NCBI GenBank assembly: GCA_019115305.1 | Contig: DXDW01000187.1 | Coordinates: forward strand, 1 to 36,563 | Source of the DNA: Candidatus Anaerofilum excrementigallinarum | GTDB taxonomy: Bacteria; Bacillota; Clostridia; Oscillospirales; Ruminococcaceae | Length of the DNA: 36,563 nucleotides | Reading direction: 5' to 3' | Shown here: positions 14,347 to 31,282 of the stretch, one piece after another | Numbering within the stretch: position 1 is the first letter of the stretch | How the letters are laid out: every line of letters starts with the position of its first letter | Translations under genes and position numbers: made by a program | The notes under the pieces: generated by a model | What the model was told of the DNA's origin: nothing | Seen by the model: only the letters and a program-made list of their open reading frames with translations | The model's database searches: none

Positions 14347-14465
14347 CGGCATACCCGCCATACTTTTTCTCTCAAAGCTGTGCAGGGTGCCGATTTTTGG
14401 TTTTTTGCCGATTTTCCCTTGCCTTTTTGCCCCAAAACAGGCATAATACCTCGTTGGGTCCGTCC

Positions 14466-14526
14466 CATATAAATTCATAATATGGATGAATGTTTCTACC
14501 AGCTGCCCTGAACAGCTGCCTATGTG
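14466..14526 (+). ncRNA. purine-class riboswitch aptamer (guanine-like C at the specificity position)
   Basis: catatAAattcatAATATGGatgaatGTTTCTACCagctgCCCTGAAcagctgcCTATG: P2 attcat/atgaat with L2 aatatgg, J2/3 GTTTCTACC, P3 cagctg/cagctg with L3 ccctgaa, J3/1 cCTATG; P1 is weak. Confidence 0.82.
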
Positions 14527-14629
14527 TTCGGCCCCCCGCTGCGGGGGACCCTACCCTTTTGCAGCCGGTCAGGGCGCTTTTTTGCGCCCATCGCCTTTGC
14601 GGTCACAACAGGACAGGAGGAATTTTTGT

Positions 14630-16039
14630 ATGCAGTACGATCTCATCATTGTAGGCGCCGGTCCCGCCGGCATCTTCACCGCCCTGGAACTCATCCGCCG
14701 CCGCCCCGACCAGAAGATCCTGCTGGTGGAAAAAGGCCAGCCGGTGCAGCGCCGCCGCTGTCCCAAGGAGCAGACCGGCCGCTGCGTGAACTGCCGCCCC
14801 TGCTGCCACATCACCACGGGATTTTCCGGCGCGGGGGCCTTTTCCGACGGCAAGCTCAGCCTGAGCTGCGAGGTGGGGGGCGAGCTGCCCGACCTCATCG
14901 GGGCCGATCTGGCCCAGGAGACCATCGACTACACCGACAAGATCTATCTGGAATTCGGCGCCGACCCCCATGTGGAGGGTGTGGGCCATCCCGAAGCGGT
15001 GAAAAAGATCCGCCGCCGGGCCATCCAGGCAGGTCTGAAGCTGGTGGACTGCCCCATCCGCCATCTGGGCACCGAAAAGGCCCAGGAGATCTACTACGCC
15101 ATCCAGCAGGAACTGGAGCGGCTGGGGGTGGAACTGCTGTTCGGCACCGACTGCGCCGACCTGACGGTGGAAAACGGCCGCTGCATCGGCGTGGTGCTGC
15201 ACAAGGCCGGTGACCCCGAGGCCGACCGCCGGACCCTGCTGGCCAAAAACACCGTCATCGCCGCCGGACGCCGGGGCGCGGCCTGGCTGGAGGAGCTCTG
15301 CCGCCGCCACGGGGTGGAGCGCACCCCCGGCAATGTGGACATCGGCGTGCGGGTGGAGGTGCGCAACGAGATCATGGAGGAGGTAAACGAGGTCCTCTAT
15401 GAGTCCAAGCTCATCGGCTATCCCGCCCCCTTCAAAAACAAGGTGCGCACCTTCTGCCAGAACCCCGGCGGTTTTGTGAGCCAGGAAAACTACGACAACG
15501 ACCTGGCGGTGGTCAACGGCCACTCCTACAAGGAGAAAAAGTCGGACAACACCAACCTCTCCATCCTCTGCACCCACCATTTCCGGGTGCCCTTCGACCG
15601 GCCCATCGACTACGCCCGCAAGGTGGGCGAACTGACCAACATGCTGGGCGCCGGCCACATCCTGGTGCAGCGCTACGGGGACATTCTGGAGGGCAAGCGC
15701 ACCTGGCAGGAGGAGCTGCACCGCAGCAACCTGCGCCCCACTCTGCCCGACGCCGTGGCCGGTGACATCACCTCGGCCATGCCCTACCGCACCATGACCA
15801 ACATCATCAGCTTTATCCAGGCTCTGGACCAGGTGGTGCCGGGCTTTGCCTCCTCCGAGACTCTGCTCTACTCCCCCGAGCTGAAATTTTATTCCAACCG
15901 CATCGAGATGGACCCCCAGTTCCACACCAGCCTGCCGGGGCTGGCCTGTCTGGGCGACGCTTCGGGCTGGACCCGGGGTCTGATGATGGCCAGCGTCATG
16001 GGTGTGCTCATGGGCCGCCGTCTGGCCGAAGAAGCCTGA
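14630..16039 (+). CDS. NAD(P)/FAD-dependent oxidoreductase, COG2509-like
   Basis: MQYDLIIVGAGPAGIFTALELIRRRPDQKILLVEKG; CPKEQTGRCVNCRPCCHITTGFSGAGAFSDGKLSLS; C-terminal LACLGDASGWTRGLMMASVMGVLMGR; ATG preceded by acaggagg. Confidence 0.9.
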   Translation: MQYDLIIVGAGPAGIFTALELIRRRPDQKILLVEKGQPVQRRRCPKEQTGRCVNCRPCCHITTGFSGAGAFSDGKLSLSCEVGGELPDLIGADLAQETIDYTDKIYLEFGADPHVEGVGHPEAVKKIRRRAIQAGLKLVDCPIRHLGTEKAQEIYYAIQQELERLGVELLFGTDCADLTVENGRCIGVVLHKAGDPEADRRTLLAKNTVIAAGRRGAAWLEELCRRHGVERTPGNVDIGVRVEVRNEIMEEVNEVLYESKLIGYPAPFKNKVRTFCQNPGGFVSQENYDNDLAVVNGHSYKEKKSDNTNLSILCTHHFRVPFDRPIDYARKVGELTNMLGAGHILVQRYGDILEGKRTWQEELHRSNLRPTLPDAVAGDITSAMPYRTMTNIISFIQALDQVVPGFASSETLLYSPELKFYSNRIEMDPQFHTSLPGLACLGDASGWTRGLMMASVMGVLMGRRLAEEA

Positions 16040-30920: not shown

Positions 30921-31038
30921 TTTTCCCACTCCTCCGATTCCCGGAAAATTTTTTCTTTCTTGTGTATTGTACTACGCCCCATAGCTCTTGACAAGGACAC
31001 ACCCATTTCCTATAATACAGGAAACTGAATTTTTCTGG

Positions 31039-31221
31039 GTTTAAGTGCCGCCGGCTGCGTATGGCGTCGGCGGAGAATAGTGAATCCGGTGCAAATCCGG
31101 AACGGTACCGCCACTGTAAGCGAACAGGCGTCTGCGCAAAGACGAAAGTCGGTCATTGGGAGCTTTCCCGAGAAGGCCGTGCAGCCGCCGCTAAAACGCA
31201 AGTCAGGAGACCTGCTTAAAC
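31039..31221 (+). ncRNA. cobalamin (AdoCbl-type) riboswitch
   Basis: P1 gtttaag/cttaaac; gaatagtgaatccggtGCAAatccggaacggtaCCGCCACTGTaagcg; B12 box aagtcaggagacctgc. Confidence 0.97.
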
Positions 31222-31282
31222 GGGATTGCCCGTGCTTTTCGAGCAATAGAAGCAGGGGCGGCAATTGTTGTGCAGAAAATCG

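Follow-up and report, generated by a model that had tools for sequence, protein, structure and literature searches.

The leader and its gene

The window (the whole 36,563-nucleotide stretch analysed, contig DXDW01000187.1 of Candidatus Anaerofilum excrementigallinarum) carries a purine-class aptamer upstream of a gene for a FAD-dependent oxidoreductase of unknown function. The features of this locus are given here with the evidence for each.

14419–14447 (+): probable sigma-70 type promoter, TTGCCT, 17 nt, CATAAT (consensus scan, 9/12; weak alone)
14460–14531 (+): purine-class aptamer, three-way junction of P1, P2, and P3 (RF00167; clade model R1; helix covariation)
14479–14485 (+): L2, AATATGG (sequence)
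14492–14500 (+): J2/3, GTTTCTACC (sequence)
14500–14505 and 14513–14518 (+): P3, CAGCTG/CAGCTG (sequence)
14506–14512 (+): L3, CCCTGAA (sequence)
14519–14520 (+): J3/1 positions 73 (C, not A) and 74 (C, the guanine-type specificity base) (Rfam alignment, numbering checked)
14615–14620 (+): ribosome-binding site AGGAGG, 9 nt ahead of the ATG at 14630 (sequence)
14630–16039 (+): COG2509-like FAD-dependent oxidoreductase, 469 aa, function unknown (PF21688 and FAD domains; alignment of 33 relatives; AlphaFold model)

The Rfam purine model (RF00167), named in a preliminary description of the sequence as the check on its proposed purine aptamer, matched positions 14445–14542 (+) over its full length with 48.0 bits (gathering score 37, E 3.2e-5). 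The core parts listed in that description (J1/2, L2, J2/3, P3, and L3) were all found base by base. Clade model R1 scored 74.1 bits at 14460–14531, the window copy being one of its training sequences. A scan of the assembly, which is 84% complete, found the window copy to be its sole purine aptamer. Since the copy is alone in the genome and R1, in the flanks of related genes, finds it only just upstream of those genes, the match is more than chance. Promoter-like sequences were seen by eye at the same place in orthologous leaders.

The pocket bases U22, U47, U51, and C74 are all canonical and, judged from its sequence, the aptamer belongs to the purine family and has a guanine-type pocket. Both J3/1 bases had been read correctly: C at position 74, and C in place of A at position 73. 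Because C74 sets the specificity, guanine, hypoxanthine, or xanthine is the predicted ligand, much as the preliminary description expected, and we infer that guanine (or one of the other two) would occupy the junction. The signatures of other classes were absent from the window aptamer, with the definitions of xanthine-II and guanine-II taken from PMC9295807. Position 14520 is C and not the U74 of adenine riboswitches. The J2/3 segment (GTTTCTAC) has neither the U51G nor the insertion of xanthine-II, and J3/1 has no insertion; the insertions in both segments that mark guanine-II are likewise missing. The 2′-dG-I, -II, and -III classes have altered J2/3 pocket bases, and the window J2/3 is canonical, so the 2′-dG variant that had also been raised does not fit. 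P1 is as weak as was first described. It is short and mismatched (CATA/TATG, 14466–14469/14521–14524, plus an outer C–G pair), and together with C73 this may give the window copy a low ligand affinity.

The protein of the downstream gene matched PF21688 with 46 bits (cut-off 27) and contains FAD/NAD Rossmann domains, in agreement with its earlier assignment as a FAD-dependent oxidoreductase that is not a classical purine gene. Four cysteine residues (C44, C52, C55, and C59) are invariant in the alignment of 33 relatives; they could hold an iron–sulfur cluster. The AlphaFold model has a mean pLDDT of 83.6 and is of low confidence around residues 50–80. The nearest solved relative by both sequence and fold is 3NLC, followed in the fold search by general FAD oxidoreductases. 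The fold search gave no substrate, and the NCBIfam search put no name on the enzyme. Its score for the aminoacetone oxidase family (TIGR00275) was 28.4 against a cut-off of 183.8.

Elsewhere in the window, a cobalamin riboswitch lies at 31026–31233 (97.9 bits). The genes behind it encode a BtuF-like binding protein, a FecCD permease, an ABC ATPase, and a CobB/CobQ-like amidotransferase, and as annotated this is an ordinary B12 uptake locus.

The predicted terminator and direction of switching

The minimum-energy fold of 14452–14583 pairs 14501–14519 with 14561–14578, directly ahead of six Ts. The preliminary description had suggested a shorter version of this pairing (14501–14510 with 14570–14578); it is real in the fold and extends further. 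The terminator was taken from the full fold, as the automatic terminator finder had chosen an earlier T-run at this place. Its parts are as follows.

14501–14519 (+): 5′ arm of the predicted intrinsic terminator, made of the P3 5′ strand, L3, the P3 3′ strand, and base 73; excludes the aptamer (minimum-energy fold)
14530–14550 (+): internal hairpin of the terminator structure, ggCCCCCCgctGCGGGGGacc (minimum-energy fold; equivalent hairpin in orthologous leaders)
14561–14583 (+): 3′ arm (14561–14578) and U-tract (14578–14583) of the terminator (minimum-energy fold; sequence)

Almost all orthologous leaders have as their minimum-energy fold a long terminator of the same design, with the P3 5′ strand and L3 as the 5′ arm and a 3′ arm that abuts the U-tract. 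In 22 orthologous leaders, the duplex of the two arms has a mean energy of −20.8 kcal mol−1 with the true partners, compared with −15.0±0.74 kcal mol−1 when the arms are permuted between species and −9.8 kcal mol−1 when they are shuffled. None of the 20,000 permutations was as low as the true partners (z = −7.8) in this test, which takes the sequences without correction for relatedness; relatedness should make it conservative. Among the aptamers of the same scan, those of purine transport (permease) and biosynthesis genes mostly have their terminator further downstream, separate from the aptamer and not built on P3.

P3 cannot serve the aptamer and the terminator at once, and a transcriptional ON switch, at first considered conceivable, is the best reading of the leader from comparison and computed folding. 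In the absence of ligand, the nascent RNA would pair the P3/L3 strand with the stretch before the U-tract, and transcription would terminate. Guanine (or hypoxanthine or xanthine) bound in the junction would hold P3 and P1 in the aptamer and block the terminator, and RNA polymerase would then read through into the oxidoreductase gene. The direction of switching in cells would accordingly be ON by this model.

Conservation and base 73

We fetched 80 related loci and scanned them with Rfam and with R1, which was built from 18 COG2509-linked aptamers. Intact aptamers precede 20 of the 80 COG2509-like genes, and one further gene has a degenerate copy; the aptamer is always on the strand of the gene and just upstream of it. 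No further R1 match was found in 541 kb of flanks of these loci. The pairing of aptamer and gene, whose conservation the preliminary description had made a check, is present in the Oscillospiraceae, Lachnospiraceae, Acutalibacteraceae, and Clostridiaceae. In the 18 aligned orthologous aptamers, 90.8% of the cells in P1, P2, and P3 are paired, and two-sided changes occur in 13 of 20 pairs. This covariation was reached in none of 500 shuffles, and sliding the partners by one column destroys the signal.

Anaerofilum and other Clostridia supply the closest relatives of the protein, and the enzyme is encoded in three more genomes of the genus, at 86–87% protein identity. When the riboswitch label is mapped onto a tree of 91 enzymes, it requires 16 changes, with at least nine of them forced by well-supported branches; thus, the pairing was not inherited once but gained, retained, or lost again and again. 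A distant branch of COG2509-like paralogues (37–38% identity; L130, L173, and L174) also has a purine aptamer. Its predicted terminator is a different, shorter, compact hairpin formed by the P3 3′ strand, J3/1, and the P1 3′ strand, and it is again of the ON type. That one enzyme family has two different ON platforms, on separate branches, speaks for a functional regulation. About three quarters of the COG2509-like genes at the 80 loci have no riboswitch, so the core role of the enzyme need not be purine-specific, and a broader housekeeping role is possible.

Three of the loci are unusual. The degenerate copy, in Anaerofilum sp. An201 (L032 2822–2892; the same as L143 and L192), has lost the J1/2 UAUAA and carries G in place of A52 and A76 before the same gene. 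By its sequence, it is likely a dead switch beside an intact gene, which indicates that the switch can be lost. The Sarcina ventriculi aptamer ahead of the COG2509-like gene (L053 2819–2892) shows U74 and a single additional U in J3/1, and its ligand may differ (possibly adenine). One 39.8 kb MAG contig (CALWZD010000062.1) contains the same locus twice in opposite orientation (L033 and L034), either as a real inverted duplication or as an assembly palindrome.

Base 73 was counted in 93 distinct aptamers. With A in 74, G in 12, U in four, and C in two, it varies more than any other core base of J3/1; positions 22, 23, 46, 47, 49–53, 75, and 76 hardly vary in the same set. The other C73 copy (L162) sits before a guanine deaminase gene, and G73 and U73 also occur in aptamers ahead of ordinary purine genes. 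Sister species of the genus have an aptamer with A73 before the same gene as in the window. In the window terminator, C73 (14519) pairs with G14561, and an A there would cost 2.8 kcal mol−1 in the fold; in the terminator fold of two sister species, A73 is opposite a U (by eye). In published analyses, A73 is a stacking neighbour of A24 (PMC9588036) and makes only a weak interaction with the ligand, with no hydrogen bond (PMC13306598). The variable position, the weak contact of A73, and the C73–G14561 pair together suggest that A73C probably leaves ligand recognition unchanged and is an adaptation to the terminator, as far as few sequences can tell. C73 may also be a sequencing error in this fragmented assembly.

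Two other explanations of the window copy were weighed against a functional switch. The copy could be decaying, with relaxed constraint and with expression set by the terminator alone or constitutive. A73C, the weak P1, the degenerate An201 aptamer, and the many relatives that have no switch would fit such a decay. We consider it unlikely, since the remaining core positions, P2, P3, the L2/L3 contacts, the terminator, the ribosome-binding site, and the spacing are all intact, C73 is paired in the terminator, and the clade model still gives 74 bits (with the window in the training set).

It is less probable still that A73C and the weak P1 shift recognition to a different purine derivative, the substrate on which the FAD enzyme acts. 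All ligand-contacting bases are canonical, G or U at position 73 precedes ordinary purine genes, sister species combine A73 with the same gene, C73 adds a C–G pair to the terminator, and A73 has no hydrogen bond to the ligand (PMC13306598). These points outweigh the rarity of C73 (2/93), the origin of known variant classes in pocket changes (PMC9295807), and the fact that the enzyme gene does not belong to the classical purine genes. The preliminary description had seen in A73C a hint that the aptamer may bind another ligand. The variable site, the A73 of the sister species, and the lack of 2′-dG, xanthine-II, guanine-II, or adenine features speak against this, and a ligand-changing mutation was rejected on the census and the A73 of the sister genomes.

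The purine-disposal genes, the enzyme, and known riboswitches

Below about 55 bits, the class-wide search with R1 also picked up many ordinary purine aptamers, and we drew the regulon from the top matches only. Outside the enzyme family, the best matches precede purine-disposal genes. One genome (G409) has three copies: before an 8-oxoguanine deaminase (NF006055, 578 bits, cut-off 532), before a guanine deaminase that is followed by a permease, and before the xanthine dehydrogenase gene xdhA (1197 bits, cut-off 780). A second species of its genus has the same three aptamer–gene pairs. A guanine deaminase, assigned by similarity, also lies behind the aptamer in G390, G569, G581, and G648; the two guanine deaminases tested narrowly missed the NCBIfam equivalog cut-off (355 and 361 compared with 375 bits). 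An adenine deaminase is preceded by a copy with U at position 74 (adenine-type). An ON-type aptamer with G73 stands before a MATE exporter (L029 1516–1586/L175 1501–1571), possibly a guanine-induced purine exporter, and another ON-type copy lies before a permease (L177). In the organism's own family, the R1 matches above 62 bits all precede the COG2509-like gene. Two adenine-type copies (L111 and L112) have no gene directly behind them.

Other aptamers were noted in the same search. Two U74 members of the subfamily (L156 4588–4657 and L157 5802–5871) have their own terminator-like fold and no gene directly behind; tyrS starts about 870 nt downstream of the L156 aptamer. In the organism's own family, a purine aptamer before xdhA (L190 1501–1576 (−)/L211 6909–6984 (−)) looks like a xanthine-II riboswitch because of its U51G and longer J3/1. 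Three tandem purine aptamers (L160 1930–2001, 3469–3540, and 4986–5057) each stand ahead of one of the copies of a gene for a PnrA-like (Bmp) nucleoside-binding lipoprotein. A sister species has a second subfamily aptamer at a contig end (L208 5411–5482 (−), G536:C133; 58.9 bits) with G73 and A54, and the ORF that follows it most closely matched no Pfam family.

An OFF switch of the xpt type, in which the ligand promotes termination, is very improbable: described guanine-I switches are mostly OFF (PMC9295807, PMC11477304), but here the terminator takes the P3 5′ strand and L3 that the bound aptamer needs paired, this pairing co-varies in 22 leaders and is re-invented in the distant paralogue, and guanine OFF control of the other subfamily genes, which are disposal genes, would make little sense. 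Comparison and computed folding support the aptamer class, the mutually exclusive terminator, the conservation, and the regulon. We consider it likely that the window element is a guanine-type purine riboswitch acting as the transcriptional ON switch of a purine-disposal regulon that would include the orphan flavoenzyme gene across related Clostridia.

As related aptamers precede genes for purine breakdown and export, the RNA suggests that the flavoenzyme takes part in purine disposal. The predicted regulon strongly indicates that the enzyme is linked to purine metabolism, which was put forward earlier as a possibility, and it is from the switch alone that we infer a role in purine disposal. 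The neighbours of the enzyme gene differ between genomes, with no conserved purine gene among them. Operon context was dropped as a clue to the role on the same ground, as no purine gene recurs beside the enzyme. Xanthine dehydrogenase-like genes occur in the genus, with scores that fall short of the NCBIfam cut-off for XdhA; one species has them downstream of a purine aptamer and a purine permease, and another species has an ssnA RNA motif (RF03031, 48.5 bits; L209 6234–6281, G135). With these, purine breakdown is plausible in the organism. The L209 region also contains xanthine dehydrogenase-like and amidohydrolase genes. The enzyme would most likely act on purine excess, either as a catabolic redox enzyme or as an electron-transfer partner. 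Only tentatively do we propose the wider picture, in which COG2509-like flavoproteins catalyze, or feed electrons to, an undescribed anaerobic step of purine breakdown, and the guanine-type ON-switch clade of gut Clostridia controls a whole purine-disposal regulon, with base 74 changing to follow the substrate of each enzyme.

The aptamer itself is ordinary. What is unusual is a canonical guanine pocket wired ON for purine-disposal genes in several families of gut Clostridia, and the novelty lies in the ON platform, the set of purine-disposal genes, and the orphan flavoenzyme. The literature searched, which covered few subscription papers, described no guanine ON switch before guanine deaminase or xanthine dehydrogenase, and an earlier description is possible. 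Within that literature, where one paper mentions COG2509, this is the first functional lead for the widespread flavoenzyme family COG2509, whose function is unknown.

In both sequence and fold, the enzyme comes closest to the PF21688 FAD-dependent protein VP0956 of Vibrio parahaemolyticus (3NLC), which is 23% identical over the fold and is itself uncharacterised. Among riboswitches, the 8-oxoguanine class has a guanine-like junction and ON control of 8-oxoguanine deaminase, with a narrow spread in the Paenibacillaceae. One member of the present subfamily likewise precedes an 8-oxoguanine deaminase gene. The 8-oxoguanine class is mentioned in PMC9295807, where xanthine-II and guanine-II are predicted to be ON switches with the same junction, xanthine-II controlling purine catabolism. 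The window element differs from both in having no U51G and no insertion in J2/3 or J3/1. The adenine riboswitch of the pbuE type is a transcriptional ON switch whose terminator takes up aptamer strands. The window element would share this ON platform but has C74; U74 occurs in the subfamily before adenine deaminase. With guanine-I (RF00167, B. subtilis xpt type), it shares the three-way junction, the U22/U47/U51/C74 pocket, and the GG–CC loop–loop contact. It differs in C73 and in its predicted ON platform, OFF in xpt, with P3 and L3 built into the terminator. Many clade members, though not the window copy, have a shortened L3, and in place of the usual guanine-I genes, the clade would control purine-disposal genes and an orphan FAD enzyme.
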